Source of the DNA: Corynebacterium accolens
GTDB taxonomy: Bacteria; Actinomycetota; Actinomycetes; Mycobacteriales; Mycobacteriaceae
NCBI RefSeq assembly: GCF_023520795.1
Contig: NZ_CP046605.1
Span: 2,277,438-2,341,437 of the forward strand
Length of the DNA stretch: 64,000 bases
Reading direction: 5' to 3'
The notes beneath the pieces were generated by a model. The model saw only the letters and a program-made list of their open reading frames with translations. It made no database searches and was not told the DNA's origin. Shown in pieces: positions 1-25,712 of this stretch (within the stretch, counting starts at the first letter, position 1; each line of letters begins with the position of its first letter). The translations under genes and the position numbers were made by a program.

Positions 1-752
1 CCGCCTGGATTTATGGCGGCGTCTCCCTTAACCCGATGCGTCTTCCTGCCCGCCACCAGGAGACGATGCTCACGCGCGCTATCTACCGCTACCATCCGCG
101 CTTTGTCAACGCATCCTTTGAGTTTTGGTACGGCGACACCGACGAGGACCCAGGCCTTGCCGCCCTCGAGGGCGGCGACATCATGCCGGTGGGCAATGGC
201 GCAGTCTTGGTAGGCATGGGCGAGCGCACCACCTGGCAGGGCGTTAGCCGCTTGGCTAGCAACCTGTTCAAGGCCGGTGCGGCTGAGAAAGTCATCATCG
301 CGGCAATGGCTCCGGAGCGCGCCTCGATGCACCTGGATACCGTATTCACCTTCCTCGACGCGGACAAAGCCACCGCGTATCCGCGCGTGGTGGATACCAT
401 CCGTCCGCTGATTCTGCACCCCTCGGAGGATCACACGAAGCTGGAACTGGAAAGCCCGGACAAGCACTTCGCCACGGTGGTCGAAGAAGCGCTCGGCCTG
501 GATAAGCTCCACATCGTCGAAACTGGCGGCAATTCTTATGCCGCCGCGCGTGAGCAGTGGGATGACGCCAACAACGTGGTTGCCTTGGAGCCCGGTGTGG
601 TCGTGGCTTACGATCGCAACAAACACACCAATGCCAAGCTTCGCGACGCCGGCGTCGAAGTCATCGAGATCGGTTCCGCCGAACTGGGCCGTGGTCGCGG
701 TGGCGGACACTGCATGACCTGCCCCATCGTGCGCGATGCAGTGGACTACTAA
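1..752 (+). CDS. arcA: Arginine deiminase, C-terminal part (5' end outside window)
   Basis: Hydrolyses L-arginine to citrulline and ammonia, the first step of the cytoplasmic arginine deiminase pathway (ATP and acid tolerance). The reading frame is open from base 3 ([12 protein letters not shown]), so the gene begins upstream of the window. About 250 C-terminal residues are present. Family hallmarks are the NPMxxPARHQET-like segment, the EGGDIMPVG segment, the HIVETGGN segment and the C-terminal GGGHCMTCP, which carries the nucleophilic cysteine. The last residues and stop at 750-752 look intact. An amino acid permease follows 15 bp downstream, so the two are probably co-transcribed. No arcB or arcC is visible, but they could lie upstream. 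Confidence 0.95.
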
Positions 753-767
753 GGGGAACACTAGCCG

Positions 768-3995: not shown

Positions 3996-4004
3996 GAGTG
4001 CTCC

Positions 4005-6285: not shown

Positions 6286-6299
6286 ACCGCCTAAACGTT

Positions 6300-9781: not shown

Positions 9782-9940
9782 GGGGCCTTCCTTCTAGCTT
9801 TTTGGATCAATGCGTTGGGCTACTCAATTGCGCTGCACACCACATCATATGTGTCGACATGTCTCGAGTCTGTCGGCCTGGCCCAGAAGTACCTTGAATT
9901 CCAATCAGAACATGCACAATAGACTGCATGTCGAAACTGG
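9782..9940. other. Promoter region of the exonuclease-BRCT gene
   Basis: About 160 bp between the exonuclease start (read leftward) and the first insertion-sequence remnant. It must hold the promoter. The ATG at 9781 is preceded on the minus strand by AGAAGGAAGG, a strong ribosome binding site. I see no further gene. Confidence 0.5.
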
Positions 9941-9942
9941 GC

Positions 9943-10049
9943 CTGACCCCCGGACAGTGGACACGTCGGGGGTTAGCTATGCTGCTTTGGTCAATGTAGC
10001 TGAAGTCTCGGCTTCAAAGACATCAGGGGCTGAGGTTACCCTCGTTTAG
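9943..10049 (-). mobile_element. Terminal remnant of an IS3-family element (same type as the 11340-12634 copy)
   Basis: Read on the minus strand, this piece matches the 3' end of the intact element at about 12535-12634: the last codons of orfB (ending in a Tyr/Leu-rich tail around TCGGCTTCAAAGAC) and the terminal inverted repeat with GTGGACAC and a run of C. The two copies are in opposite orientation. The rest of this older copy is missing, because another IS3-family element begins at about 10050. Confidence 0.7.
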
Positions 10050-10090
10050 TGGACACCCGATTAGTGCGGATCTTGTGTCCGTAAGAGAGG

Positions 10091-10408
10091 ATGTTCATTG
10101 TGAGTCAACAACGCCAGAAATACACACCTGAGTATCGACGCGAAGCCGCGAACCTGGTAATCGAATCGCAGCGCCCAATTGCTCATGTAGCGAAAGAAAT
10201 TGGTGTCGCACCTGGTCTTTTAGGCCGATGGGTAAAAAATGAGCGTCAACGCCGAGGATCCTCCGATGGATTAAGCGAGGCTGATCTTCGTGCTGAGAAT
10301 GCTCGTCTGCGCCGTGAGCTGGCAGAAGCCAAGATGGATAACGAGTTTTTGTCAAAAGCGACAGCCTTCTTCGCCGCAAGGCAACGCGAACAGAAAAGTT
10401 CGAATTGA
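10091..10408 (+). CDS. IS3-family transposase OrfA
   Basis: A 105-residue protein with an N-terminal helix-turn-helix (YTPEYRREAANLVIES through IGVAPGLLGRWV) and a C-terminal leucine-zipper-like coil (LRAENARLRRELAEAKMDNEFLSKA). This is the DNA-binding partner of IS3 transposases. It overlaps orfB by 4 bp. An A-rich stretch just before the stop (near 10392) could serve for the -1 ribosomal frameshift that makes the OrfAB fusion. Confidence 0.88.
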   Translation: MFIVSQQRQKYTPEYRREAANLVIESQRPIAHVAKEIGVAPGLLGRWVKNERQRRGSSDGLSEADLRAENARLRRELAEAKMDNEFLSKATAFFAARQREQKSSN

Positions 10409-11308
10409 TGCAGCCAGAGAAGGCTAACTACAGCATCAAGCGCATGGCACGCTTGTTGAAGGTATCTCGGTCTGGATACTACAAATGGACCCATACACAG
10501 CAGCAACGACTATCCGGCGAAGATAATCGTGCAGCATTTTACAATGATGTTGACCGCAAGATTCACCAGATTTGGAAAAACTCCGACGAGGTCTATGGTG
10601 CTCCGCGGATCACCGCAGAGCTAGGTGAGCGCTACCAGATCAGTGTGAATCGCAAGACTGTGGCTAAGCGGATGCGTCTGATGGGCATTGAAGGGATTTC
10701 ACCGCGTGCTTTTGTGCCGGTGACAACGATTCAATCTAAGCGTAAGTCCACGCTTCCTGACTTGGTCCGGCGCATGTTTGATACCGGTGAGCTTAACCGA
10801 GTGTGGATGTCAGATATTACTTATCTGCGCACTGGTGAAGGCTGGTTGTATTTGTGCGTGGTCCGCGATGGTCATTCCCGCAGGTTACTGGGCTGGGCTA
10901 TGGATAGCGTGCAAGACACAAGTTTGGTCGAACGGGCCCTGCGGATGGCGCACACGCTGCGTGGTGACGTTGCTGACGGGCTGGTGTTTCACGCCGACCG
11001 TGGGACACAATTCACCAGTGAGAAGCTCTGGGAGGTGTGCCGCAGCCTAGGGGTTGCTCAGTCTGTGGGACGTACCGGAGTGTGTTTCGATAATGCGATG
11101 GCCGAGTCGTTCTGGTCGACGCTGAAAACTTAAGTTCTACGACCGTAAGCGCTGGCCAACCCGTGATGCCGCACGCAAGGCCGTTGCCTACTGGATTGAA
11201 GTAGTCTACAACCGTCGGCGCCGGCACTCCGCACTCGGGATGGTCAGCCCCGTCGATTTCGAAAATCACATCACCCAAACCAGAAACGAAGAAAAAATCG
11301 CTGCCTAA
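10405..11308 (+). pseudogene. IS3-family transposase OrfB, frameshifted near its 3' end
   Basis: The catalytic integrase-like part of an IS3 transposase. Reading from 10405 gives an HTH_21-type N-terminus (YSIKRMARLLKVSRSGYYKW) and the DDE triad in WMSDITYLR, FHADRGTQFTS and NAMAESFWSTLK. The frame stops at 11133 (TAA) just after the catalytic Glu. One base later the next frame continues as K-F-Y-D-R-K-R-W-P and runs to the normal IS3 ending (YNRRRRHSALGMVSP) and a stop at 11306-11308. A single extra T near 11132 explains the break. The copy is probably inactive, though all catalytic residues lie before it. Confidence 0.82.
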
Positions 11309-11407
11309 CCGCTAGGTAGCTCCACTACGTGTCCAGGACCTGACCCCCATGTGGTGGACACCTGATATCCAGCCCAGTCGAGCTGGGAAGAAAGGTAATC
11401 TACCACC

Positions 11408-11707
11408 ATGTCCAGGTACTCCGAACAGTTCAAACGCGATGCCGTGGCCCTCTATGAGAACAATGAGGACCTCTCGCTGAACTCAGCATCAGCCGAGCTC
11501 GGAATCAATCGAGCCTCGCTGCATTCTTGGGTCAAAAAGTACGGCACCGGCAAACGTGCTCGCACAAAGGCCATGCACGATAAAGCCCAAGCGGCGAATG
11601 ATTCCGAGCGAATCCGCCAGCTAGAAAAAGAGAACGCAAAATTGCGCGAAGAGCGCGATATTCTGCGCAAGGCCGCCAAATATTTTGCCGAAGAGACACG
11701 CTGGTGA
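11408..11707 (+). CDS. IS3-family transposase OrfA
   Basis: A 99-residue protein with a helix-turn-helix (YSEQFKRDAVALYENNEDLSLNSASAELGINRASLHSWV) and a charged coil ending in KLREERDILRKAAKYFAEE, typical of IS3 OrfA. It overlaps the start of orfB by 4 bp, as expected for a frameshifted OrfAB product. Confidence 0.9.
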   Translation: MSRYSEQFKRDAVALYENNEDLSLNSASAELGINRASLHSWVKKYGTGKRARTKAMHDKAQAANDSERIRQLEKENAKLREERDILRKAAKYFAEETRW

Positions 11708-12600
11708 TCCGCTTCCAGTTTGTCTATGACCACCGAACCGAGTACTCGGTCAAGCGGATGTGCCATGTGTTAAAGCTCAATCGCTCCTCGTTCTACAAAT
11801 GGGTCAATACCCGCGAAAATCGCAGGTTAAAGATGTGCTCTGATGCTCTTATTGGTGCAAGAATCAAGACCATCTTCGATGATGAGCACGGGCTTTATGG
11901 TGCCAAACGCATCGCCGCAAGCCTCAACGACGATACGGACCTCGGCCCGACCAATCATAAGAAGGTCGCACGCATCATGAAATCGATGGGGATCAAAGGC
12001 TTTACCAAACGACGTCGATGCATCACCACCAAGCGCAAGCCTGGCCACCGTGTCATGCCAGATTTAGTAGGCCGCAATTTCACCGCTGACAGGCCGAACC
12101 ACGTCTATGTAGGCGACATCACCTACCTGCCGTGCAAGGGAGGCAAAAACATGTATTTGGCTACAGTCATTGACACCTATTCACGGAAACTTGCAGGTTA
12201 TGCACTCGCAGACCACATGCGTGTCTCACTGGTCATCGATGCCCTAGCCCACGCACACGGTGTGCGTGGCAGTCTTGACGGGGCTATTTTCCATTCCGAT
12301 CACGGCAGCGTGTACACCTCACAAGCGTTTAGAAACTACTGCTCGTCGCTGGGTGTACGCCAATCCATGGGCGCGGTGGGAACGAGTGCCGATAATGTCC
12401 TGGCAGAGTCATTTAACGCCACCTTAAAACGTGAAGTGCTGCGTGATCGGAAAGTCTTTGATAATCCCATTATCTGCCGTCAGGAAGTCTTCCGGTGGTG
12501 CATGCGCTACAACACCCGCAGGCGCCACTCCTGGTGCAATCTTGTGGCTCCTGATGTCTTTGAAGCCGAGACTTCAGCTATACTAGCTAAAGTCGCATAG
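11704..12600 (+). CDS. IS3-family transposase OrfB (DDE integrase domain), intact
   Basis: A 298-residue protein with an HTH_21-like N-terminus (YSVKRMCHVLKLNRSSFYKWV) followed by an rve integrase core. The DDE residues are seen in VGDITYLPCKGG, FHSDHGSVYTS and NVLAESFNATLKREVL. The C-terminal RYNTRRRHSWCNLVAPDVF is the usual IS3 ending. No frameshift or internal stop, so this copy could be active and could also mobilise related, defective copies nearby. Confidence 0.9.
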   Translation: MIRFQFVYDHRTEYSVKRMCHVLKLNRSSFYKWVNTRENRRLKMCSDALIGARIKTIFDDEHGLYGAKRIAASLNDDTDLGPTNHKKVARIMKSMGIKGFTKRRRCITTKRKPGHRVMPDLVGRNFTADRPNHVYVGDITYLPCKGGKNMYLATVIDTYSRKLAGYALADHMRVSLVIDALAHAHGVRGSLDGAIFHSDHGSVYTSQAFRNYCSSLGVRQSMGAVGTSADNVLAESFNATLKREVLRDRKVFDNPIICRQEVFRWCMRYNTRRRHSWCNLVAPDVFEAETSAILAKVA

Positions 12601-12634
12601 TTAACCCCCGATGTGTCCACTTTCCGGGGGTCGG

Positions 12635-12905
12635 GCCCCCACGATTTGCGGGCAACCCCAACACCTCTTTGCTTTGTTGTCAATATTGGCGAGTTATCTT
12701 GTGTAGATGTGCTGATAGTAGAGCGGATTTATGGGTGAGTTTTAATGATGTTTACTGTTTATTATCTCAGCGAGTATTCGTAGCTTCAGCTGTTAATTTT
12801 TCGGCTACAAGCTAGGCAGCTGCGCGGTCACCGAATCAGACGTATGATGTCTTATGACTAAGGATTTCGTACAGATATTTCGCATCTAACCGGAAGGTAA
12901 AGACC
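12635..12905. promoter_or_regulatory. nanA promoter region with GntR-type operator half
   Basis: This 270-bp AT-richer stretch between the IS end and nanA holds no gene I can see. At 12835-12850 it contains ATCAGACGTATGATGT, which differs at one position from the core of the perfect palindrome ahead of the transporter gene. It most likely holds the nanA promoter and the NanR binding site. A good ribosome binding site (GGAAGG) lies just before the nanA ATG. Confidence 0.6.
12835..12850. promoter_or_regulatory. Candidate NanR (GntR/FadR) operator ahead of nanA
   Basis: ATCAGACGTATGATGT matches 15 of 16 bases of the operator at 16847-16866. It lies about 55-70 bp before the nanA start. The match between two promoter regions of one pathway, with a GntR-family regulator gene in the same cluster, supports a shared repressor site. 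Confidence 0.6.
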
Positions 12906-13886
12906 ATGTCCGCCACTACACAAAGTCCAGCCACTACCCAGCGCTCCGCGGCTACCCAGCCTGTGAAGGGTGTGGTCCCACCCGTACTCACGCCACTGAA
13001 TGATGACTACTCCATCGACATCAGTACCCTTAAACGCCACGCTGAACGCCTGATCAAAGCCGGCGTCCACGGACTATTCGTCCTTGGCTCCTCCGGCGAG
13101 GTCGCATTCCTCACCCGCGAGCAACGCCGCGAGGTCATCGCCGCCGTCATCGAGCAAGCCCAAGGGCGCGTACCCGTCATTGCGGGTGTGATTGATATGA
13201 CCACCCCACGGGTCATTGAGCATATTAAGGACGCCGTCTCCCTCGGCGTGGACGGTCTGGTCGCCACCGCCCCGTTTTACGTCCGTACGCACGCGGTGGA
13301 AATTGCGGAGCATTTCCGACAGCTCCACGCCGCAGCGCCCGATACCCCGCTGTACGCCTATAACCTGCCGGTGAGTGTTCATACTGTTCTAGAGATTGGG
13401 TCATTAGTTGAGCTAGCCAGCGAGGGTGTTCTTGCAGGTGTGAAGGATTCCGGGGGTAATGATGGGTACACTCGTGCGTTAATTCTTGCCCGCGATAAAG
13501 CAGGCGTGGAAAACTTTGTGGTGCTGACTGGCTCCGAAACCACTGTGGATTTCGCGTATCTTGCCGGTGCTGATGGCGTGGTTCCGGGGTTGGGGAATGT
13601 GGACCCAGTGTCTTATGTCACACTGCACGATTTACTGGTGAAGGGCGAGTTCGCGGAAGCAGCGCGTGTCCAAGCTAGGATCACGGAGTTATTTACCATC
13701 GTTGGTGTGGGTGATGCCTCCCGTATGGGCGGAAGTTCCCAGGGCTTGGGTAGTTTCAAGGCGGCGCTGCATCACCTTGGGGTATTTCCTTCTGGTTTGA
13801 TGTCCCGTCCACACGTTGCGCTGAATAGTGACGAGCGTGCGGCAATTGCCACCATTGTTGACGCGGCGAAGATCATTGAACCATAA
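12906..13886 (+). CDS. nanA: N-acetylneuraminate lyase (DapA/NanA family)
   Basis: Cleaves N-acetylneuraminate (sialic acid) to N-acetylmannosamine and pyruvate through a Schiff base. The 326-residue protein has the (beta/alpha)8 barrel of the dihydrodipicolinate synthase/NAL family: GLFVLGSSGE near the N-terminus, the catalytic tyrosine in YAYNLP and the Schiff-base lysine in AGVKDSGGN. By sequence alone it could be another aldolase of this family. The neighbouring nanK, nanE, nagA and nagB make the sialic acid role nearly certain. The first 20 residues, rich in Thr, Ser and Gln, are an extra N-terminal extension. A good ribosome binding site precedes the ATG. Confidence 0.9.
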   Translation: MSATTQSPATTQRSAATQPVKGVVPPVLTPLNDDYSIDISTLKRHAERLIKAGVHGLFVLGSSGEVAFLTREQRREVIAAVIEQAQGRVPVIAGVIDMTTPRVIEHIKDAVSLGVDGLVATAPFYVRTHAVEIAEHFRQLHAAAPDTPLYAYNLPVSVHTVLEIGSLVELASEGVLAGVKDSGGNDGYTRALILARDKAGVENFVVLTGSETTVDFAYLAGADGVVPGLGNVDPVSYVTLHDLLVKGEFAEAARVQARITELFTIVGVGDASRMGGSSQGLGSFKAALHHLGVFPSGLMSRPHVALNSDERAAIATIVDAAKIIEP

Positions 13887-13987
13887 GCACTGGCCATTGA
13901 ATCTGAATGTACGCCGATGCTGACCCACCCTTGTGAGTATCGAACTCACACTTGTATAGCCAACTATCCCTTATGTAGCCAAATATT

Positions 13988-14983
13988 ATGACTGTGACAC
14001 TTGCTTTAGACGTTGGGGCAACAAAAATTGCCTGGGGTTTCGTAGATGATGACTCGCCTATGACAGCGCGATGTGTGGGCAGAATCCCCGCCCAGCCGCG
14101 GGGAGCCACGACGGGCGAACAGATACAGAAAGCTATTGCTCAGGCCGTGGATACTTCTGGTATTCACCCCACCCGCATAGGGATCGGCGCGCCGGGTGTT
14201 GTGCTCGCCCCTCAAGGACAGGTGGTACATAACGGCGATACGATCACGGGCTGGTCGGGGACAAATATTCGTGACCTGGCACGTGAGGTTATTGGTGTTG
14301 CCTGCGCGGTTCATAATGATGTGCGCGTATGGGCGTATGGTGAGTTGGCTGTGGGGCAGGCTCGGGAATTTCAGTACGGGCGGGTGTTGTATTTATCTTT
14401 GGGCACTGGCGTGGGGGGCGCGGTCAGCGATGATGGCGCACTTTTGCCCAGCCGTACTGGTTCAGCGGGGGAGTTTTCCGAGCTGCTGAGCGTGGACTGC
14501 CGGGGTTGTGCGGATCGTGCGGAAAACCTTATGAGCGGTAATGCATTGGCTAGTTACTACCAGGCACTGTCCGCTGAGTCGGCGCAGCCTGGCGCAGAGA
14601 CCCCAACCGTTGAGCCGGCGCAGCCTGGCGTTTTACAGGCGCACCGGATTTCCTGGCGACGCCGCGATGAGCTGGCGATTACCTTGGAAGAAGTCGTGGA
14701 GCGGATGAATCAGGGCGATGAGCTGGCTTCGTGGATTATCCGGAGCAATTCTTATGGTCTCGGGCGGGCAGTAGCGGGGTTGGTGTCCGGATTGGATCTT
14801 GATGCTGTGATTCTTGGTGGTGGGGTCAGCCAGATTGGCGAACCTGTGGTGGAGCCGTTCACGCGCGCTATCGCCGATCATGTGTTGGCGCCGAATAAAG
14901 GGGTTGCGGTGCGGGTTACTGGGTCAGCGTCCACAGCTCCGCTGGTTGGTGCGGCGGCATACGCACGCGACCACGCCTTTTAG
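13988..14983 (+). CDS. nanK: N-acetylmannosamine kinase (ROK family)
   Basis: Phosphorylates N-acetylmannosamine to its 6-phosphate. The 331-residue ROK protein shows the N-terminal phosphate loop LALDVGATKIAWGFVDDD, the sugar-binding and catalytic segment VHNDVRVWAYGE and the GTGVGGAVSDDGALL loop. The zinc-binding CxCGxxGC motif of ROK kinases is reduced here to DCRGCADRAEN. An insertion after it contains a near-exact duplication (two copies of EPAQPG or SAQPG, encoded by GGCGCAGCCTGGCG twice). No ribosome binding site is evident before the ATG, so translation may be leaderless or start elsewhere. It follows nanA after about 100 bp. Confidence 0.85.
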   Translation: MTVTLALDVGATKIAWGFVDDDSPMTARCVGRIPAQPRGATTGEQIQKAIAQAVDTSGIHPTRIGIGAPGVVLAPQGQVVHNGDTITGWSGTNIRDLAREVIGVACAVHNDVRVWAYGELAVGQAREFQYGRVLYLSLGTGVGGAVSDDGALLPSRTGSAGEFSELLSVDCRGCADRAENLMSGNALASYYQALSAESAQPGAETPTVEPAQPGVLQAHRISWRRRDELAITLEEVVERMNQGDELASWIIRSNSYGLGRAVAGLVSGLDLDAVILGGGVSQIGEPVVEPFTRAIADHVLAPNKGVAVRVTGSASTAPLVGAAAYARDHAF

Positions 14984-14995
14984 CTCACCCGTTGC

Positions 14996-15110
14996 GTCAC
15001 GTCCCGCGTACCCCCGCTGCACATCGCCCGCGCCCGAGCAGTCCTGCCACCGCCCGCTACGCCCGCTGCGTCCACTGCCCCCCGCCACGCCCCGCACTCA
15101 CCCTCTACCC
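14996..15110 (+). promoter_or_regulatory. C-rich, G-poor spacer between nanK and nanE (possible rut-like or regulatory RNA region)
   Basis: The plus strand here is strikingly rich in C and poor in G over about 115 bases (many CCCGC and GCCCC runs), unlike its neighbours. That strand bias is a feature of Rho utilisation sites, so partial Rho-dependent termination between nanK and nanE is possible. No stem with a T-run is visible. It could also be neutral drift. Confidence 0.35.
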
Positions 15111-15146
15111 AGTTTCGATAACACCATGTGAAAGGTTTCATCCACG

Positions 15147-15857
15147 ATGTTCCAGTTTGATAGCAATGACCTCGATCGGCGCCGCGCCCAGGTTCTTGAT
15201 CTTATCCGCGGCACGGTGACTGTATCGGTGCAGGCTCCGGACGGCCACCCGATGCGTGATACTCATACGTTGACCCGTGTCGCTCGTGCGTGTGTGGCAG
15301 GCGGCAGCCGCGCGATTCGTTGTGGTGGCTACGGGGGAATCCAGGATGTTGAGGCTATTGCGCAGGCCGTGGACGTGCCGGTTTTTGGCCTGACGAAGGA
15401 AGGCGGCGAGGGCGTGTATATCACCCCGACGGTGGAGTCTGTACGCCAGTTGGCGGCGGCGGGTGCTGCGGTGATTTGTGCAGACGCCACCGATCGCCCG
15501 CGTCCGGATTCGTCGACGTATGCCGATCTTGTGGAGGAATGCCACCGTCTGAATGTATTAGCGATGGCTGATTGTTCCACGCCGGAGGACATGCTTCGGG
15601 CTCATCAGTGTGGTGCGGATATTATTTCCACAACGTTGGCTGGCTATACGGAGTCTCGGGCGAAGACCGCGGGTCCGGATGTGGAGTGTTTAGCTGACGG
15701 TCGTGCGCGGTGTGGGCAGGAAGCGTTTATCATCGGGGAGGGGCGGTTTGCCTCCCGTGAGGATGTGCAGGCAGGTCGAGCATCGGGGGCGGACGCCATC
15801 ATCATCGGCACAGCCATTACCGATCCGGCGTGGATTACTCGACAGTTCAACTCCTAA
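15147..15857 (+). CDS. nanE: N-acetylmannosamine-6-phosphate 2-epimerase
   Basis: Converts N-acetylmannosamine 6-phosphate to N-acetylglucosamine 6-phosphate, feeding NagA. The 236-residue protein is a small (beta/alpha)8 barrel. Family segments are SRAIRCGGYGGIQDVEAI, the GLTKEGGEGVYITPT loop, CADATDRPRP, MADCSTPEDMLRA and the C-terminal phosphate-binding GADAIIIGTAIT. It is preceded by a purine-rich AAAGG 20 bp upstream. The ATG at 15147 follows the nanK stop by 163 bp, most of it the C-rich spacer. Confidence 0.92.
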   Translation: MFQFDSNDLDRRRAQVLDLIRGTVTVSVQAPDGHPMRDTHTLTRVARACVAGGSRAIRCGGYGGIQDVEAIAQAVDVPVFGLTKEGGEGVYITPTVESVRQLAAAGAAVICADATDRPRPDSSTYADLVEECHRLNVLAMADCSTPEDMLRAHQCGADIISTTLAGYTESRAKTAGPDVECLADGRARCGQEAFIIGEGRFASREDVQAGRASGADAIIIGTAITDPAWITRQFNS

Positions 15858-15876
15858 AGGTTCAGCGTCTCCAGTG

Positions 15877-16593
15877 TCACAGCGATTCTAAGATCGGTTC
15901 ATAGTGCAGATAAACAGCTGCTTTATAGGCGTCGAGGTTGTTATCGCGTAGTGCATTGATGATGTTCTGGTGTGCCTGTACGGTTTTTATGAGGTCTCGG
16001 GGCGCTGGTATTTGCCGTAGGGGGATGACGTTCATGTGGACTTGCCAGAGTGCGTCATAGAGTTCGCGGATGATGGGGTTATCGATGTTGGATAGCAGGA
16101 TGTGGTGAAAGCGCCGGTCTTCGTCCGCGAAGTTTTCGGCGTTGGCTTGTTTTTCCCCCATGGCGGTGACTAGTGCATGTAGTTGTTCATGCGTGGGGGT
16201 GTCCAGCTTCCTGGCGATTTCTCGGCCGATTGCCAGGTCCATGGCTTGGCGTGTTTCTACGACGTAGCGCAGGGTTTCGAGGTTTTCGTCTGCGTCTAGG
16301 GTCGCCCGGAAGATTAAGCCTTGTACCAGTGAGGTTAATGAGGCATTGGATACGAAGGTTCCTGTGCCGTGGCGTACTTCTACGATGTCTAGGGTGGCGA
16401 GGATACGCATGGCCTCGCGCACGGAGGATCGGGAAAACCCCAGTTCGGCGCACAGTTCAGCTTCGGTGGGCATGGTATCTCCTGGGGATAGGGAATTGTC
16501 CCGGATGAAGCGTTTGATACCTTCGACGGCTTGTTGGGTGGTGGAGGAAAGGGGTGTTCGTGCCCCATCGATTCCCCACGGTGAACTGTGCAC
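15877..16593 (-). CDS. nanR: GntR/FadR-family (FCD) transcriptional regulator, NanR-type
   Basis: A 238-residue regulator with an N-terminal winged helix (TMPTEAELCAELGFSRSSVREAMRILATLDIVEVRHGTGTFV) and a C-terminal FCD effector domain with helices carrying the metal-binding-type histidines (RRFHHILLS, HQNIINALRDN). It lies divergent to the transporter gene and convergent to nanE, inside the sialic acid cluster, and by context it represses that cluster when no inducer is present. The inducer is probably an amino-sugar phosphate or N-acetylneuraminate, which I cannot tell from sequence. Two copies of a palindrome upstream of nanA and the transporter gene are its likely targets. Confidence 0.85.
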   Translation of the reverse strand: MHSSPWGIDGARTPLSSTTQQAVEGIKRFIRDNSLSPGDTMPTEAELCAELGFSRSSVREAMRILATLDIVEVRHGTGTFVSNASLTSLVQGLIFRATLDADENLETLRYVVETRQAMDLAIGREIARKLDTPTHEQLHALVTAMGEKQANAENFADEDRRFHHILLSNIDNPIIRELYDALWQVHMNVIPLRQIPAPRDLIKTVQAHQNIINALRDNNLDAYKAAVYLHYEPILESL

Positions 16594-17023
16594 GGCGTGT
16601 CCTTTCTGTGTTTGTTGCGCTGGGTTTGTGGAGTCAGGTCGGTTGAGTTTATGTGATTTTATGTCAATGACCCTGATGGTTTCACGTGGCCGCCGTAGGC
16701 GGGTCCGCTGGTGCTGCGGACGTGCGTGTCAGCGTGCGTGTCGGCCTGGGCGTGCCAGTGTGCGCGCCGGTGCCTGCTCGTGGAACCTGGTCGTTAAACC
16801 CCCCTTAACAGGGGGTATTTAAAAGATTTCCTCTAAGGGCATTCTGTACATCAGACGTCTGATGTATTCTAAACTTCGCAATGTTTTTTGGTGTACGGCG
16901 TGGCTACATACGCGGCTGCGATATATGGCTCTGTGATGTGTGCTGTGCCGTACGGCGCGGCGCTGATTATAAAGGGCTGCGCAGGTTGTGACGTGCGGCA
17001 CATATTATGAAAGGGGGGCTGCA
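16594..17023. promoter_or_regulatory. Divergent promoter region between nanR and the transporter gene
   Basis: About 430 bp without a gene. Besides the operator at 16847-16866 it contains a short GC hairpin at 16798-16816 (ACCCCC paired with GGGGGT) just before the operator. The ribosome binding site AAGGGGGG at about 17011 fixes the transporter start at 17024. Confidence 0.55.
16847..16866. promoter_or_regulatory. Perfect 20-bp palindrome, candidate NanR operator
   Basis: TACATCAGACGTCTGATGTA is identical to its own reverse complement. It lies between nanR and the sialic acid transporter gene, about 160 bp before the transporter start and 250 bp before the nanR start. The related site at 12835 ahead of nanA makes chance very unlikely. 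It fits the dimeric binding of FadR-type GntR regulators. Confidence 0.75.
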
Positions 17024-18532
17024 ATGCAATCATTTGGCACTGTCAACTGGATCGTGTTGATCCTCTATCTCCTCGGCATGCTCCTCGTGGGGGCTTATTT
17101 TGCCAAGCGGGCAGTTCATGGACAGGATGAGTTTTTCAAAGCGGGCGGCCGCATACCCGGTTGGGCGGCAGGCTTTTCCATCTACGCCACCACATTGTCT
17201 GCTGTTACTTTTATGTCCACCCCAGAAAAGGCGTACTTGACAGACTGGGGATATTCGGCAGGTAACCTGGCCATTTTCGCCATCGTCCCGCTGCTGATCG
17301 GTTTCTATGTACCGTTTTTCCGAAAGTTGGACGTCACCACCGCCTACGAATACCTAGAGGAGCGCTTTTCTGTCGCCTTGCGCGTCATCGGTTCCCTCCT
17401 ATTCGTTCTCTACCATATGGGGCGTATTGCTATCGTCGTGTATCTGCCAACGCTGGCGATCACCTCTGTGGCGGACATGAACCCCCTCATCGTTGCTGCC
17501 TGTGTTGGTTTCTTGTGCGTGATATACACCTTCTTGGGTGGCATGGAGGGCGTGATTTGGTCCGATGTTATCCAAGGTATTTTGCTGCTTGCGGGTGCCG
17601 CCGTGGTGATTCTTGCGGCAATGTCGATGACTCCGGAGGGTTTCTCCGACGCTTTGTCACACGCCGCCAGCGAGGGTAAGTTCTACTCCTCACAGAACTT
17701 CGCTACTGATGCAATCTTTACCTCCATTCCATTCATTTTCATCGGCAGTATCCTGAATAGTCTGCATCAGTACACGTCCTCGCAGGATGTTGTGCAGCGC
17801 TACCAAACTACACCAACGATCCAGGCGACCAAAAAATCCCTGATTGTTAACGGAATCCTCGCGCTCGTGACCATTCCACTGTTCTACGGCATGGGAACCG
17901 CACTGTATAACTTCTACGAGGCCAAGGGTGGTCTACCCGAGGGCGTGAACACTTCCGCCGTGGTGCCGTATTTCATTCTTTCCGAACTGCCAGCTGGTAT
18001 CGCTGGGCTGATCATTGCCGCTATTCTCGCGGCAGCGCAGTCCACGATTTCTTCATCACTGAACTCTATTTCTGCCTGTGTTGTGGTGGATATTTACAAT
18101 AGGTTCTCGGATAAACAAGCCTCTGTGATGTTCTCCCGCATTGTGATTATCATCGCCGGAATTTTCGGCGTGGGCGTGGCTCTATATCTTGTGGCGACCA
18201 ATCAATCGGACCTATGGGACCTCTTCTTGTCCATCACCGGCCTGTTCGGTGTGCCGCTGACAGCCGTCTTTGCCCTAGGTATTTTCACCAAGACGGCCAA
18301 TTCCCACGGCGTGCTGATTGGTTTGGCTTTAGGCGCTGTTGCCGCATTTTTCGCAGGAAAGATGGGCCAAGGTCCGTTCCTGGTCTCTACCGTGGCATTC
18401 GTGGTGACTCTTGTCGCCGGTTATGTTGTATCCCTGATATTCACCAGCAGGCATACCCATGACATCACGGCATTAACAATCTACGGCAAAGATCAGGAGT
18501 ATATCCGCCGCGCCCCAGCACTGGCGAAGTAA
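17024..18532 (+). CDS. Sodium:solute symporter (SSS family), probable sialic acid transporter
   Basis: A 502-residue permease with 13 or so membrane segments, starting MQSFGTVNWIVLILYLLGML. An upstream in-frame ATG at 16988 has no ribosome binding site, while AAGGGGGG sits 7 bp before 17024. SSS family signs are the early GRIPGWAAGFSIYATTLSAVTFMSTPEKAY segment, SSQDVVQRYQTT, and ISSSLNSISACVVVDIY. Sodium-coupled import of N-acetylneuraminate is inferred from position between nanR and nagA; SSS-type SiaT transporters are known in other bacteria. In C. glutamicum the equivalent cluster uses an ABC transporter instead. No ABC genes are here. Confidence 0.85.
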   Translation: MQSFGTVNWIVLILYLLGMLLVGAYFAKRAVHGQDEFFKAGGRIPGWAAGFSIYATTLSAVTFMSTPEKAYLTDWGYSAGNLAIFAIVPLLIGFYVPFFRKLDVTTAYEYLEERFSVALRVIGSLLFVLYHMGRIAIVVYLPTLAITSVADMNPLIVAACVGFLCVIYTFLGGMEGVIWSDVIQGILLLAGAAVVILAAMSMTPEGFSDALSHAASEGKFYSSQNFATDAIFTSIPFIFIGSILNSLHQYTSSQDVVQRYQTTPTIQATKKSLIVNGILALVTIPLFYGMGTALYNFYEAKGGLPEGVNTSAVVPYFILSELPAGIAGLIIAAILAAAQSTISSSLNSISACVVVDIYNRFSDKQASVMFSRIVIIIAGIFGVGVALYLVATNQSDLWDLFLSITGLFGVPLTAVFALGIFTKTANSHGVLIGLALGAVAAFFAGKMGQGPFLVSTVAFVVTLVAGYVVSLIFTSRHTHDITALTIYGKDQEYIRRAPALAK

Positions 18533-18573
18533 TCACCATGACCACGTGGTGATGTGACCTACCATCGATAGTT

Positions 18574-19878
18574 ATGACATTCTCAGGACCACGCATTCTC
18601 ACAGGCCGGTTTATCACCGAATCCGTTACATGTGATCACGCCCAAATCCGGCTGGATTCCCATGGCGTCATTGAGAGCATCGAGCCTGTCTCCGAGGCTG
18701 CGCCCATCACCACCGCACCCGCCACCCCCGCGTCTATCACCACCGCAGGCGCTCCCCGTGAAGGCACCGTCACCACGCTCGCCGCCTCCGATCGGATCAC
18801 GTGGGTGCCGGGGTTCGTTGATCTTCACAACCACGGCGGTAATGGCGGGGCATTTCCCACCGGTGAACTGCAACAATGTCGAGCCGCCGCAGCCTACCAC
18901 CGCGCCGCCGGAACCACCACGCTTCTAGCCAGCACGGTATCCGCCACACGCGATGATCTGCTTGCCCAGCTTGATATCCTCACCACGCTATGCCAGGAAC
19001 GAACCATTGACGGTATCCACCTGGAAGGGCCATTCGTTAACGCCTGCCGCTGTGGCGCCCAGAACCCCGCAGCGATCATCGACGGTGACCCAAAGCTCTT
19101 CGCCGAACTGCTGGACGCGGGCGCCGGACATATTGTGTCAATGACCTTCGCCCCGGAAACCCCACATGCCCGTGAGCTGGTGAGCATGTGCGCGCGCCAT
19201 CATGTTATTGCGTCGCTGGGCCATACGGATGCCTCCGCGCATCTCACCCGGAGCATTCTTGATCACGCCCGCGAGGTTGGGGCGACAGTCACCGCCACAC
19301 ACCTGTTCAATGCCATGCCACCTCTGCATCACCGCCGGCCTGGTGCCGCGGCCGCGCTGGTGACTGCGGCCAGTGCGGGTGAGGTATTCGTGGAGCTGGT
19401 GGCGGACGGCACCCATCTGGATCACCACATGGTCGATATGGTGTGGGCTGCCGCGCCGAATAATGCGATGGCCATTACGGATGCGATGGAGGCCGCAGGT
19501 TTGGAGGATGGGGAATATATCCTCGGCGCGCTTGATGTTCAGGTGCGCGGTGGGGTGGCGCGATTGGCAACACAGGATGGTAGCGCCGGTGCGATTGCCG
19601 GGGGAACATCCACGCTGCTTGATCAATTTCATGCCTTTCGGGCGCGTCATGGAGTGCATGATGCTGTGCGGTTTACCTCCGCGAATGCTCGGGCTGTGCT
19701 GGAGGCAGCAGGTCAGAGCCACGCTGGGGCGACAACGGCGGAGCACGGCGGGGTGGCTGAGCACAACAGTGTTGGGCCGGGGTCACTATTGCATTGCCCG
19801 GCGCCGGAGGTTGGCCAGCCAGCGCGGTTGGTGGGTCTCAACCCGGACGGCACGATTGCGGAGGTTATCCGCGCATGA
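18574..19878 (+). CDS. nagA: N-acetylglucosamine-6-phosphate deacetylase
   Basis: Removes acetate from N-acetylglucosamine 6-phosphate in the cytoplasm. The 434-residue amidohydrolase shows the metal site PGFVDLHNHGG, the catalytic HLEGPFVN, the histidine motifs SLGHTDAS and ATHLFNAMPPLHHRRPG, the substrate loop LVADGTHLDHHMV and the catalytic aspartate in AITDAMEAAG. It has low-complexity Ala/Pro/Thr stretches near residues 40-70 that most NagA proteins lack. There is no clear ribosome binding site before 18574. It begins 41 bp after the transporter, preceded by a small hairpin, so leaderless or coupled translation is possible. Confidence 0.92.
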   Translation: MTFSGPRILTGRFITESVTCDHAQIRLDSHGVIESIEPVSEAAPITTAPATPASITTAGAPREGTVTTLAASDRITWVPGFVDLHNHGGNGGAFPTGELQQCRAAAAYHRAAGTTTLLASTVSATRDDLLAQLDILTTLCQERTIDGIHLEGPFVNACRCGAQNPAAIIDGDPKLFAELLDAGAGHIVSMTFAPETPHARELVSMCARHHVIASLGHTDASAHLTRSILDHAREVGATVTATHLFNAMPPLHHRRPGAAAALVTAASAGEVFVELVADGTHLDHHMVDMVWAAAPNNAMAITDAMEAAGLEDGEYILGALDVQVRGGVARLATQDGSAGAIAGGTSTLLDQFHAFRARHGVHDAVRFTSANARAVLEAAGQSHAGATTAEHGGVAEHNSVGPGSLLHCPAPEVGQPARLVGLNPDGTIAEVIRA

Positions 19879-19960
19879 AAAACAACGACCGCGAAACTAC
19901 ACACCGCGAACATAAACACAGCGGTAACCCCGCGAAACATAAAGATAAGAAAGGACCATC

Positions 19961-20728
19961 ATGAAGATTCTTATTCGTCACAGCCCCGAGGATGTCGCAA
20001 CCACCGCCGCGCAGATTTTCGCGCAGCACATTACCCCTGGCGCGCGGATAGGTTTAGCCACCGGCTCCACGCCTTTATTGATGTATCAGGAACTTATCCG
20101 GAAATTCCAACGCGGTGATCTTACATTTGCGCAGGTAGATGCTTTTTTGCTGGATGAATACGTGGGTTTGCCGAAGGAACATAGGGAGTCTTACTACGCC
20201 ACTATCCGCCGCGAGTTCACTGAACATATTGATATTGCGGATACTGCCGTTCACTCGCCGGACGGCACGCATACTCACCCGTGCCAGGCGGCTAGGCAGT
20301 ATCAAGAGCTTATAGACGCCGCACCTATTGACATTCAGCTCTTAGGCATAGGAGCTAATGGCCATCTGGGGTTTAACGAACCAACCTCTGCGTTGACCTC
20401 CGTGACTCGTGTGAAAACCTTGCACCCGAGGACTGTGCAGGATAATGCGCGTTTTTTTGATTCAGCCCAGGACGTGCCTCACCATGTGATTACTCAAGGT
20501 TTGGGAACGATACAGAAAGCATCCCACCTCTTATTATTGGCGACTGGCGAAGCCAAGGTGGAGGCCGTGAAGGCAATGGTGGAAGGGCCGTTAAGTGCAT
20601 TTTGCCCGGCGTCTGTGTTGCAACTGCACCCACAGGCCACGGTTGTGCTTGATGAGGCCGCGGCTGCTGCCCTATCGGATAAGGACTACTACCGTTTCGT
20701 GGAAGAACACCAACACCTGGTGAGTTAG
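19961..20728 (+). CDS. nagB: Glucosamine-6-phosphate deaminase
   Basis: Converts glucosamine 6-phosphate to fructose 6-phosphate and ammonia, completing entry of sialic acid and GlcNAc carbon into glycolysis. The 255-residue protein has the family blocks RIGLATGSTPLLMYQEL, DAFLLDEYVGLPKEHRESY (catalytic Asp) and QLLGIGANGHLGFNEP. It has a strong ribosome binding site (AAAGGACC). It is the last gene of the cluster; the right end of an ISL3 element lies 70 bp beyond its stop. Confidence 0.93.
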   Translation: MKILIRHSPEDVATTAAQIFAQHITPGARIGLATGSTPLLMYQELIRKFQRGDLTFAQVDAFLLDEYVGLPKEHRESYYATIRREFTEHIDIADTAVHSPDGTHTHPCQAARQYQELIDAAPIDIQLLGIGANGHLGFNEPTSALTSVTRVKTLHPRTVQDNARFFDSAQDVPHHVITQGLGTIQKASHLLLLATGEAKVEAVKAMVEGPLSAFCPASVLQLHPQATVVLDEAAAAALSDKDYYRFVEEHQHLVS

Positions 20729-20798
20729 GGCTATGAATTTTTTGGGGCTGTGAGGTTAGGGTTTATGGCTACCGGTGGTGTGCTGTGCAGGATTAACC

Positions 20799-21598
20799 GG
20801 CTCTTCGGGTTTTAGAGTGCATTGATTTTGTGTTGGATGTTGACGGCGTGGATGAGGCATCGCAAGATGTAGTGGTTGAGGTTGCAGAAGCCGAGGGCGA
20901 TGCCGCGTAGGAATTCTAGGCGGGCGTTGATGGCTTCGACCGGCCCGTTGGATACTTTGTAGTCGAAGTAGGCGAGGACGTCCTTGCGGCGCTTGTTCAT
21001 GGTCTGGCCCAGCTGCTCGATCTCAGCGATCCCGGCGTCTTTCATGCCAACAAGCGTGTCAATGAGCATGCTCATGGCTTTCTTGGCTGCTTGCTGGGAT
21101 TGTTGTAGCAGCTAATGACTTGTTGGTAGTAGTTCCAGGTCTCTTGTAGCCGCGCGTAGTCGTCGAAGTCAAACAGCTCCTCAAGCCTTCTGCGCTGTTT
21201 GTCGGTGAGTAGGTGCTCGGTGGTCAACAGCGTTTTCCGATTGCGGTAGAGCGGGTCTTTGCTCCGGTTACGCCGGCCTTTTGTTTCTCACTGGATCCTG
21301 GTATGACACGTGGTGAGCTTGTCATCGGCAAGGCGTACAACGTGGAACGGGTCTATGACTTGGGTGGCTTTTGCAATGACCTCGCCAGCGGCGGTGGCAT
21401 AGCCTTGGAAGCCGTCCATGCTGATGATTTTGACGTGATCGCGGAACTGCTCGCTTTGATTATTCAGCCATGTTCGCAACGCGTTAGCGCTTGTTGCTGG
21501 GACAACGTTAAGAAGCCGGGCGGGGCGGATGACGTTTGCATCCTTGTCGTGGTGGTCGGTCATATCGACGATGATGGTGACGTATCCGTTGCGCGGGC
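20799..21598 (-). pseudogene. ISL3-family transposase remnant
   Basis: The end repeat GGCTCTTCGGGTTTT at 20799 is the ISL3-type terminus. Reading leftward, two separate frames show ISL3 transposase sequence: VTIIVDMTDHHDKDANVIRPARLL with the middle FQGYATAAGEVIAKATQVIDPFHVVRLADDKL (21288-21600) and the end KVSNGPVEAINARLEFLRGIALGFCNLNHYILRCL (20812-21075). Internal frameshifts separate them, and the N-terminal third is gone where an IS3 element begins at about 21598. Confidence 0.82.
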
Positions 21599-21632
21599 CT
21601 GGCCCCCAGAAAGTGGACACGTCGGGGGTTAG

Positions 21633-22516
21633 TTATGCTGCTTGGGGCAGTTTAGCTGAATTAAGCGCTTCGAAGTCATCGGGGGCTAGAAGGTTGCACC
21701 AGGAGTGCCGCCTGCGCGTGTTGTAGCGCATGCACCACCGGAAGATTTCCTGGCGGCAGCTGATTGGACTTTCAAAGAGTTTCCTATCACGCAGTACTTC
21801 ACGCTTTAAGGTGGCGTTAAAGGATTCTGCTAGGGCTTCTATCCGCACTCGTTCCCACTGCTCCCATGGATTGACGCACACCAAGCTGGGCGCAGTGGTC
21901 CCCAAACGCCTGTGAGGTGTACACACTGCCATGATCAGAATGGAAAGTTGCCCCTTTAAGGCTTCCGCGGACCTTTCTGGCATGAGACAAAGCCTCGATA
22001 ACCAGCGATACCCGCAAGTGATCCGCGAGTGCATGACCGACAAGTTTGCGAGAGTAGACGTCGATGACCGTGGCAAGGTACATGTTCTTGCCACCCTTAC
22101 ACGGCAGGTAGGTGATGTCGCCTACATAGACGTGGTTTGGCCTGTCAGCGGTGAATCTCCGGCCTACTAGATCTGGCATGACTCTGTGGCCAGGCTTGCG
22201 CCTGGTAGTGACACATCGGCGCCGCTTGGTAAAGCCTTTGAAGTCCCATGGCTTTCATGATGCGTGCGACTTTCTTGTGATTGGCCGGGGTATACGCCGG
22301 GTCTTCCTTGAGGTTTGCAGCGATGCGTTTAGCACCGTAAAGCCCGTGCTCATCAGCGAAGATGGTTGTGATTCTTGCACCAATAAGACCGTCGGAATAC
22401 ATCTTTAACCTGCGCTGTTCACGGGTGTGGACCCATTTATAAAACGAGGAACGATTCAGCTTTAACACCTGGCACATCCGTGTGAGCCGAGTACTCGGTT
22501 CGGTGGTCATAGACAC
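21633..22516 (-). pseudogene. IS3-family transposase OrfB, multiply frameshifted
   Basis: Three overlapping minus frames together reconstruct OrfB: 22516-22145 (CQVLKLNRSSFYKWV, DEHGLYGAKRIAANL), 22179-21817 (YVGDITYLPCKGGKNM, TFHSDHGSVYTSQAF) and 22094-21633 (ALAESFNATLKREVL, RYNTRRRHSWCNLLAPDDF). Reading jumps frame at least twice, including between the second Asp and the Glu of the DDE triad, so no full transposase can be made. Confidence 0.85.
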
Positions 22517-22546
22517 ACTGGAAGCAGAACTCCCGTGAGTCTGCTT

Positions 22547-22834
22547 TAAGCAAAATATTTCGCAGCCTTGCGCAGGATATCGCGTTCTTCGCGCAGCTTA
22601 GAGACCTCTTTTTCCAACTGGCGGATGCGTCTCACGATTCATTCGCCGTTTGGGCTTTCTCATGCACAGCTTTTATGCGCGCACGCTTTCCGGTGCCGTA
22701 CTTCTTGACCCATGAATGTAGCCGATGCACGGTTGATACCGAGCTGGGCTGATGCTGCGTTCAGCGAGAGGTCCTCATTGTTCTCATAGAGGGCCACAGC
22801 ATCGCGTTTGAACTGTTCGGAGTACCTGGACATG
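22547..22834 (-). pseudogene. IS3-family transposase OrfA, degraded
   Basis: Minus-strand fragments reproduce OrfA of the intact copy (start MSRYSEQFKRDAVALYENNEDLSLNAAS near 22832, coil ending in KLREERDILRKAAKYF near 22560), but single-base changes in the middle break the frame. The start context at 22832 is kept. Confidence 0.75.
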
Positions 22835-22905
22835 GTGGTAGATTACCAATCTTGCCAGCCCGAATGGGCTGGATATCAGGTGTCCACCCAAAAGGGGTCA
22901 GGTCC

Positions 22906-22977: not shown

Positions 22978-23310
22978 CATAACACCTCAAAGCTAGACGG
23001 GCCCTAAAATACGATTTAATCTAGCGCTTCACCGCCCTACATTCCAAGAATTCGGTGTACACAGCACGATGCGGCTCAACTCGTTATCCCGATACGTTTT
23101 CCATTTCACTAGTTCTAAAAATTCGACAGCAATAGCGGCCAATAGGAAAATCGACATTGCCACTGCAACATATACGGTGAGAGAGTTTTAGAGCATTTTC
23201 CATTGCCTGAACCAGGTCCACCCCGGAAAGTGGACACGTCTTCGATTTTTAAAAGTCGTAGTAGACTAATAAGGGCCCCAACGAGTGCCAGCTCATTGTG
23301 ACCCTCGGGT
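22978..23310. other. Non-coding, IS-scarred region
   Basis: About 330 bp of AT-richer sequence with no convincing gene. A short IS3 terminal remnant lies at 23214-23241 (CCCCGGAAAGTGGACACGTC), identical in type to the ends of the neighbouring elements. The rest holds nothing I recognise. Confidence 0.5.
23214..23241 (-). mobile_element. Solo terminal repeat of the IS3-type element
   Basis: CCCCGGAAAGTGGACACGTC is the end sequence shared with the copies at 9943, 12634 and 21598. No transposase sequence is attached, so this is a scar. Confidence 0.5.
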
Positions 23311-23382
23311 CTAAACACCCACATGAAGAATCGCGCTAACGAACTTCACGGTAGCGGTCACAAAGTTGAGGACTCCGCTCAT
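23311..23382 (-). CDS. Possible 23-codon hydrophobic peptide
   Basis: An ATG at 23382 opens a 23-codon frame (M-S-G-V-L-N-F-V-T-A-T-V-K-F-V-S-A-I-L-H-V-G-V). It is amphipathic or hydrophobic in character. The frame stays open upstream of the ATG, and AAAGGAG lies 17 bp before it, nearer to in-frame upstream codons, so the true start is uncertain. It lies between the IS scars and the pck terminator. I recognise no family. Confidence 0.25.
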   Translation of the reverse strand: MSGVLNFVTATVKFVSAILHVGV

Positions 23383-23461
23383 CAAGTTAAGGATTGCAGC
23401 TCCTTTGGTGGCGAGGTCTTTTCCGTTGTAACTGGGGTATCGGTTTAACCCCAACAAAGAT

Positions 23462-23493
23462 CTAACCCCAGAGCTTTACGCTGCTGGGGTTAG
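23462..23493 (-). terminator. Terminator downstream of pck
   Basis: CTAACCCCAG and CTGGGGTTAG form a perfect 10-bp stem with a 12-base loop, 30 bp after the pck stop. On the minus strand a short T-rich stretch (ATCTTTGTT) follows. Confidence 0.7.
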
Positions 23494-23524
23494 CTTTATG
23501 CGGGGATTACCGCGGCTGAACGCG

Positions 23525-25351
23525 TTAGGAAGCGGCGTCCTCCACGCGCTTCTTCAGGGCGCGGAATTGGTTCCACACTTCCTCGGGCACGCGGGAGCCC
23601 AAGAAGTTCAGGTACTCGGCGTTGTCTTGCATATCGCCTTCCCATTCCTTCGGGTCAACGGCAAGGGCGGCGCGAACGTCGTCGACATCGAAGTCAAGGC
23701 CTTCCAAGTCGATGTCCTCGGCGCGGGCGGTGCGTCCGACCACCGTGTCCTCGGCTTCCACGTTGCCTTCGATGCGGTCGATAATCCACTTAAGAACGCG
23801 GGAGTTCTCGCCAAAGCCCGGCCACAGGAAGCGGCCATCGTCGCCGCGGCGGAACCAGTTAACCAGGAAAACCTCTGGCATGCGGTCGCCGCCCTTTTTG
23901 CCCATGTCAATCCAGTGCTGCAGGTAGTCACCGGCGTTGTAACCCATGAACGGCAGCATAGCCATCGGGTCGTGGCGCAGCGCGCCAACTTCGCCCTCTG
24001 CGGCTGCAGTCTGGCCGGAAGACAGCAGTGCACCGATCATGGTGCCGTGGTTCCAGTCGAAAGACTGGGTCACCAGCGGAACCGTGGTCTTGCGGCGGCC
24101 GCCGAAGAGGATGGCATCAATCTTGACGCCCTTCCAGTCGTCGTATTCCGGCGCGGCGGTGGGGCACTGGGAAATCGGTACGCAGTAGCGGGAGTTCGGG
24201 TGGGCGGCCTTGGTGGACGATGCTGGTGTCCAGTCCTCACCGGTCCAGGAGATGAGGTGGTCTGGTGCCTCCTCGGTCATGTCCTCCCACCAGACATCGC
24301 CGTCATCGGTAAGCGCAACGTTGGTGAACAAGGTATTGCCCGGCTTCATGGTATCCATGGCAATCGGGTTGGAATCGTAGTTGGTGCCAGGGGCAACGCC
24401 GAAGAAACCGTTTTCCGGGTTCACGGCATAAAGGCCGTCCTCGCGCAGGTGCAGCCAGGCGATGTCATCGCCCACGACCTCAGCCTTCCAGCCAGGAATG
24501 GTGGGGGTGATCATGGCCAGGTTGGTCTTACCGCACTGGGATGGGAATGCGGCGGCGACGTGGTAGTTCTTGCCCTCTGGGTTCGTCAGCTTCAGGATGA
24601 GCATGTGCTCAGCCATCCAGCCTTCTTCCTTGGCCATGACGGACGCGATGCGCAGCGCGTAGCACTTCTTAGCCAAGATAGCGTTGCCGCCGTAGCCGGA
24701 ACCGTAGGACCAAATCTCCTTGGTCTCTGGGAACTGGGTGATGTACTTATTGTCGTTGCACGGCCAAGCAACGTCCTCTTCGCCTGGCTGTAGCGGGGCG
24801 CCGACGGAGTGGAGGGCGTGGACGAAATCGCCGTCCGTACCAATCTTGTCCAGCGCCTCTGCGCCCATGCGGGTCATGATGCGCATGGACAAGACCACAT
24901 AAGCGGAATCGGTCAGCTGCACGCCGAGCTTGGGCTCTGGATCGCTGATCGGGCCCATGCAGAAAGGAACGACGTACATGGTCCGGCCCTTCATGGATCC
25001 ACGGAAGGCCTCCGTCATTTCTTCCTTCATGGCCTTTGGCGGCGCCCAGTTATTGGTTGGGCCCGCGTCTTCTTCCTTCGAGGTGCAGATGAAGGTGCGG
25101 GATTCCACGCGGGCAACGTCCGCAGGGTTGGACCGCGCCAAGTAGGAATTCGGGCGCTTTTCCTCATTGAGCTTGATGAGGGTGCCTTTTTCTACTAGCT
25201 CCGCGGCGAGGCGGTCAGCCTCTTCCTGCGAGCCATCCACAAAAGCCACCTCGTCCGGCTGGAAAAGCTCAACGCTTTCATTAATCCAGTCGATCAGTTT
25301 TTGATTGTCTGTAGGCAGCTCTCCAACGAGGCCCTGAATGGTGGCGGTCAT
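23525..25351 (-). CDS. pck: Phosphoenolpyruvate carboxykinase (GTP)
   Basis: Interconverts oxaloacetate and PEP with GTP, the main gluconeogenic step in corynebacteria. The 608-residue protein has the GTP-type PEPCK blocks: the substrate segment [27 protein letters not shown], the kinase-1 loop [14 protein letters not shown] with the reactive cysteine, the metal-binding [15 protein letters not shown] and [11 protein letters not shown] place the start at 25351 ([12 protein letters not shown]), with AGAGGAGA just upstream, rather than at the longer in-frame ATG at 25396. Monocistronic, read leftward, with its own terminator. Confidence 0.96.
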
Positions 25352-25712
25352 TAAAAATTCTCCTCTGGATAGGATGTGAAAATCGGGGCACATCACGGCC
25401 CAACTTTGCCTTCCGCCTCCAGATTAACCGGCAGAGCCAAAATATTGTTCACATTAAGTGTCATTTTTCCCACTCCGGTTATATCCACCGCCGTGAGCGG
25501 ACGTTTACCAAGCGCACCACGAACAATTGTGATATTAGGCGTGATATCCTCCACACCATTTCGGGGGTAGACAAGTTGCCCGTTCGCCCGTTCCGCGCCA
25601 CAAGACACCACCCCCGTCAAAGCCTCCGGTTATCCCCCTCCCCCATACGGCGGGGAAAATACCCGGCGCGGCATATTGCTTGCCATGCCTGGACAGGGAA
25701 AAATAGGGCGCG
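25352..25712. promoter_or_regulatory. Divergent promoter region between pck and trmB
   Basis: About 360 bp with no convincing gene; a 75-codon minus frame here has no ribosome binding site and no family resemblance. It must hold promoters for both divergent units. I see no clear known regulator site. Confidence 0.45.

Follow-up and report, generated by a model that had tools for sequence, protein, structure and literature searches.

Clusters of nan genes for sialic acid catabolism that lie beside transposases in Corynebacterium accolens are already known in outline. In the accessible text of a 2022 report such clusters occur in two of six C. accolens strains, beside transposase or integrase genes and with conserved genes at both ends, and they are called genomic islands gained by transfer (PMC8754123). 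Here we describe such a cluster, with the order nanA-nanK-nanE-nanR-SSS-nagA-nagB (12906-20728), in a window of 64,000 nucleotides of a C. accolens genome (bases 2277438-2341437 of a single contig of 2.466 Mb; negative coordinates lie to the left of the window). It sits between an insertion sequence (IS), termed IS-A, and an inverted relative, IS-B. We find it very probable that the cluster belongs to a ~25-kb mosaic island, located between a methyltransferase/CPBP-protease pair and the convergent pckG gene and built from two or more blocks that were acquired independently.

The comparison covers one genome per species, and the core genes used are those on aligned stretches rather than a genome-wide sample. 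Methyltransferase, vanW-like, arcA, IS256-type and ribbon-helix-helix are names given by eye, without a family search.

Insertion site and sources of the two blocks

The methyltransferase is found beside pckG in all 11 relatives that were fetched, at a distance of ~53-66 bp in seven and 1.4-3.6 kb in four; here the distance is 26.7 kb. The closest kin by pckG are Corynebacterium sp. KPL1814 (G104), a metagenome-assembled genome (MAG), MSK130 and ACRPS (99%), and C. macginleyi (97%), with KPL1814 counted both among these five and among the 11. A site without nan genes does exist in close kin: four of the five carry both flanks on one contig and no nan genes there, and in the fifth, C. macginleyi, the contig stops 1.8 kb past pckG. 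In KPL1814, the flank to the left of pckG is orthologous (93%) to the DNA just left of the window, up to an IS remnant at -2365..-2072. Homology with KPL1814 resumes at 22980, and the ancestral right flank with pckG occupies 22980..25396 (minus strand). The acquired segment is thus ~25 kb long and starts ~2 kb to the left of the window. Judged by eye, this genome, KPL1814, MSK130, the MAG and ACRPS all have their left breakpoint within the same few bases.

The four kin hold 0.7-1.5 kb of other DNA between the ends of the homologous flanks. In KPL1814 it encodes a PIN-domain protein and a neighbour, in MSK130 (and, by near-identical sequence, in the MAG) a match to the defence model PD-T4-5, and in ACRPS a short gene pair, the first member of which looks ribbon-helix-helix-like. 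The pckG gap is a site of variable cargo, and the island sits where close relatives keep candidate defence genes. Defence-type candidates in this gap are 5011-9781 here (Fic SoFic model and PDC-S48) and, in relatives, 9543-10301 of L163 and 17507-18034 of L052. No transfer RNA gene was found in the window, no integrase was recognised by eye among the listed open reading frames, and no defining feature of an integrative and conjugative element or a prophage was recognised in the segment. Tentatively, and with somewhat less than even confidence, we propose that the gap is a recombination-fed cargo site of the C. accolens complex that mixes anti-phage-type and nutrition genes, where decayed IS3 remnants would serve as portable homology for stacking blocks from other species and the cargo itself would not be transposed.

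Block 2 (12663..21229, plus strand) is the stretch common to C. macginleyi, with 96.6-97.1% identity. C. macginleyi is the sister species of the island host and is represented by strain CCUG 32361 (G189), whose pckG contig is identical to the named record over 13,638 bases. The nan-nag block is 97% identical between the two species, versus 83-89% in aligned core stretches, and third-codon identity is 93.6-97.6% in all seven island genes against 74.0-81.5% in all 11 core genes. The SSS transporter gene occurs in 15 of 242 genus genomes at the threshold used, this one included, and the only other copy above 85% is that of C. macginleyi (98%). GC content at third codon positions (GC3) is 56.6-64.8% in the seven nan-nag genes and 68.7-79.0% in six core genes; the overall G+C of the island, only slightly lower than that of the core, is weak evidence. 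The segment thus shows the features of a genomic island, with a site that lacks it in close kin, identity discordant with the core and composition unlike the core. Transfer between corynebacteria, as originally proposed, is borne out by the 97% identity set against the core and by the site without nan genes in close kin. A human-associated Corynebacterium thus appears to have recently acquired a pathway for a host sugar, drawn from a pool common to it and its sister species.

In C. macginleyi, block 2 lies at the far side of a 13-kb cluster reaching from a vanW-like gene to the CPBP gene, with an IS3 left end on one side and an IS256-type element on the other, and the contig starts only 0.6 kb before it. 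The neighbouring 9.3-kb core stretch is 82.8-92.6% identical per 500 bases. The 500 bases nearest the block, at 91.6%, are inside this range, and a joint entry of the block and its present flank is therefore not clearly indicated. Carriage by a plasmid or a phage was considered and rejected. The 33 plasmid records with a match to the SSS protein (E up to 1e-60) stay under 60% identity throughout and include no Corynebacterium plasmid, NagA matched one weak plasmid record, and a scan of viral contigs with the single protein NanE gave no match.

Block 1 has a different close partner, the genome G050 of a third species, with which it is collinear from -733 to 9909. It comprises arcA (arginine deiminase, starting left of the window) with an arcD-like amino acid transporter gene (1..2084, plus strand, 93% nucleotide identity to G050), a ula-like phosphotransferase system (PTS) permease of the EIIC-GAT type with an EIIA/EIIB protein (2421..4844, minus, 94%), a Fic-domain protein that matches the PADLOC SoFic model (5011..6285, minus, 96%) and a protein with a DEDDh-type exonuclease domain, the PADLOC candidate PDC-S48 (6425..9781, minus, 96%). 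The pckG region of G050 is ~79% identical; compared with nine of 80 named loci, it matches them at 78-84%. Third-codon identity to G050 is 83.6-92.5% in five of five block 1 genes and 48.8-61.9% in five of five core genes. More distant arc or ula relatives (75-79%) are located elsewhere in seven of the ten genomes searched. Part of arcA is present a second time, in broken form, to the left of the intact gene (L083 18184-18301, window -1255 to -1138).

The best surviving alternative, which we nevertheless regard as unlikely, is that one transfer brought in the entire 25-kb segment, already assembled, from an unsampled Corynebacterium. Recent exchange is seen in both blocks, and arc and nan are near each other in the genome G011, as this scenario would have it. 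It is opposed by the fact that the nearest partners of blocks 1 and 2 are different species, each without the other block: the 15 genomes (of 242) that carry the SSS gene do not include G050, and those that match the Fic-exonuclease DNA do not include C. macginleyi.

Several points weigh against the assembly of the island from two blocks at this site. The first 1.3 kb, from the left IS remnant to -733, have no counterpart beside block 1 in G050 except for a 118-base arcA-like repeat, which makes a third piece likely and means that the IS end and the edge of block 1 do not coincide exactly. GC3 is core-like in three of the five block 1 genes measured (arcD 77%, ulaA 79%, ulaBC 69%). These two points slightly lower our confidence. 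The C. macginleyi copy lies just across the 13-kb cluster, so local movement may account for some of the history. A crossover within IS copies is suggested by similarity patterns alone, and presence was counted with one genome per species. As to the composition check that the original prediction called for, the nan-nag genes differ from the core in GC3, and arcD, ulaA and ulaBC do not.

An ancestral cluster at this locus, followed by IS insertions and by losses in relatives, is very improbable. Related species do carry nanA and nanE at 75-82% identity, SSS at 84-85% and nanR and nanK at 64-68%, and in G011 the arc pair is ~5 kb from nan. Counting this one, 45 of 151 genus genomes have NanE. 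In 25 of the other 44 the best pckG match is on the same contig and the nearest pair is ~146 kb apart; in the remaining 19 the two are on different contigs, where adjacency is formally possible. The arrangement named beforehand as the mark of an ancestral cluster, the same nan/nag order at this locus without IS elements in most relatives, was thus not encountered, as the spacing is at least 146 kb in all 25 same-contig genomes. The gene order that the island interrupts is intact in all 11 relatives, and third-codon identity to C. macginleyi is far above that of the core. Together these observations contradict an ancestral cluster at this locus; nan genes may possibly have an older presence elsewhere in the genus.

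Insertion sequences and the joining of the blocks

IS-A (11336..12638, plus strand) is an IS3-family element with an open transposase frame and termini GGACCTGACC to GGTCGGGCCC. It is flanked by a target duplication, CCA, at 11333-11335 and 12639-12641. IS-B (21595..22905, minus) is a decayed IS3-family element with the transposase split over several frames and without a matching target duplication, its two flanks reading CGC and CTC. The two are 83% identical over 1,314 columns, and their longest identical run is 49 bases. The pair described by the original prediction, an intact plus-strand element and a related broken minus-strand copy, is confirmed by these coordinates and this identity.

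Further elements surround the pair. IS-C (10031..11335, plus), a second IS3-family element whose second frame ends early at 11133, abuts IS-A, so that the left CCA of IS-A is formed by the last three bases of IS-C. A remnant of an ISL3-type transposase (20840..21594, minus; profile match 21291-21594, the rest by eye) adjoins IS-B, and no ISL3 reading frame was recognised in the flank translations beyond the far side of IS-B. Neither IS-C nor this remnant had been noticed before, nor had the start of the segment left of the window. Of three further scars that had been proposed, the one at 9943 is an IS3 right end (9939..10031, minus, 88%, E 3e-24), and the one near 34041 is located at 34065-34176 (80-82%). 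The third, at 23214, is merely a match of 17-20 bases (E 0.013), which by eye is present in the sister genome G104 too and is therefore older than the island.

Relatives of IS-A give 21 matches genome-wide: three identical copies, three more full-length copies (83-87%, including IS-B), and partial copies or scars. IS-A thus has two copies elsewhere that are 100% identical to it, and the three show the target duplications CCA (here), GGT and TTT. With its own duplication at each copy, each is a simple insertion.

The blocks were probably joined by recombination between resident and incoming IS copies; IS3-family copies are found at the block junctions or close to them. The inward-facing IS right ends that flank block 1 (9939-10031 and the remnant at -2365..-2072) agree in 98.9% of 93 columns when two small indels are disregarded; with the seven other right ends in the alignment they share no more than 93.5% identity. 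The left remnant is only 78% identical to the remnant of the sister KPL1814 at the same breakpoint, next to a flank with 93% identity. Judging from these sequences, the left remnant was probably replaced through recombination with an incoming IS copy. IS-A would have arrived later, by simple transposition.

The region between the IS copies was also proposed to be invertible. In principle it is, with inverted copies ~9 kb apart and the identical run of 49 bases; none of the genomes read, one per species, showed an inverted order. A switch that flips the nan operon by recombination between IS-A and IS-B appears highly improbable, since the stretch upstream of nanA is inside the invertible part and a flip would have no obvious effect on expression.

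Least probable of all is a composite transposon in which IS-A and IS-B carried the nan-nag genes as one unit, which the bracketing by two related inverted copies had suggested and which we reject, as the copies are only 83% identical (17% divergence) instead of near-identical, the duplication is not confined to the outer borders of the pair (IS-A is flanked by CCA on both of its sides, IS-B by CGC and CTC), and block 2 of C. macginleyi has another IS3 end and an IS256-type element at its borders. The unit from IS-A to IS-B was not found at other sites, and the one other close nan copy, that of C. macginleyi, has different end elements. IS pairs around a pathway can be bystanders, and target duplications tell.

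Sialic acid pathway and candidate operator

The gene content and order that had been predicted for the cluster hold up in profile matches and open reading frames, and the cluster is indeed self-contained, with lyase, kinase, epimerase, transporter, deacetylase, deaminase and regulator all present. The genes on the plus strand are nanA (N-acetylneuraminate lyase, 12906..13886), nanK (ROK-family kinase, 13988..14983), nanE (N-acetylmannosamine-6-phosphate 2-epimerase, 15147..15857), an SSS-family transporter gene, probably for sialic acid (17021..18532), nagA (18574..19878) and nagB (glucosamine-6-phosphate deaminase, 19961..20728). The regulator gene nanR, of the GntR/FCD type, is on the minus strand (15877..16593). 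NanE passes its curated cut-off (234.9 bits, cut-off 189). The equivalog models of nanA, nanK, nagA and nagB score below theirs, nagB narrowly (236.7 vs 236.9), and nagA has no Pfam match. The best solved relative of NanA is 5c54, which we take to be the C. glutamicum lyase, and that of the transporter is 5nv9, presumably SiaT of Proteus mirabilis.

NanA, NanK, NanE, NagA and NagB form the canonical route from N-acetylneuraminate (Neu5Ac) to fructose-6-phosphate. The set for canonical NanA-K-E catabolism of sialic acid is complete here: lyase, kinase, epimerase, transporter, nagA and nagB. We infer that block 2 serves this pathway. Free Neu5Ac would be taken up by the SSS transporter and then converted by NanA, NanK, NanE, NagA and NagB to fructose-6-phosphate, with the divergently encoded NanR in control. 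A search of 151 genus genomes yielded no nagA donor: outside this genome, the best relative of NagA in the remaining 150 reaches 61% identity at most. The C. macginleyi protein is 94% identical; nan and nag were therefore joined before the exchange. A second nagA gene is located at C1:29655-30548 of this genome. No BNR_2 sialidase was found in the genome, BNR_2 being the only sialidase family searched, and the strain may for that reason depend on sialic acid freed by others. The negative BNR_2 result agrees with the nasal Corynebacterium genomes for which no sialidase is reported in the available text of PMC11651106.

A perfect palindrome of 20 bp (16847..16866, core ATCAGACGTCTGAT) lies between nanR and the transporter gene and is a candidate NanR operator. 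An imperfect copy (12835..12850) precedes nanA, and a near copy is found before nanA in C. macginleyi as well. The window has three matches to the motif, at two sites, versus 0.02 expected. As the pattern was derived from this same window, conservation is the better argument. The 14-base core is exact in seven of seven nan clusters with a transporter at least 84% identical, and G010 differs outside the core. More distant clusters have a site with two mismatches in G132 and in G030, and none was found in the nan locus of G142. Clusters with more distant transporters thus lend the candidate less support, and the loci of G200, G047 and G131 contain no exact copy.

Other repeats in the window are an inverted repeat at 56812-56881, with 35-bp arms, no spacer and 86% complementarity, and identical 28-bp direct repeats at 46155-46182 and 47542-47569, 1.4 kb apart.

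Comparison with known systems

With IS3-family composite transposons the locus shares an IS on both sides of the cargo, and it differs from them in the identity of the copies and in the target duplications. The SSS-type nan clusters of the C. minutissimum clade (G011, C. minutissimum 1941 (G100), G010, G208 and G195) share with it the order nanA-K-E-R-SSS and the palindrome between nanR and SSS. They differ in their lower identities (75-82% for nanA/nanE, 84-85% for SSS and 64-68% for NanR/NanK), nagA and nagB were not found beside nan in the stretches read, and nan is far from pckG in G011 and on another contig in G100 and G010.

No nan cluster of C. macginleyi is described in the accessible text of PMC11651106, the sole literature match for C. 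macginleyi and sialic acid. Closest to our locus are the C. accolens islands of PMC8754123, for which the Fig. 4 legend mentions an SSS transporter as well as nagA genes that, like the one here, have no Pfam domains; this figure may show this very locus. The accessible text is silent on the site, block 1, target duplications and any operator, and its main text contains the word macginleyi 0 times. Relative to the accessible text of these two papers, the present analysis adds the insertion site, the mosaic from two sources, the C. macginleyi partner, the single insertion of IS-A and the palindrome.

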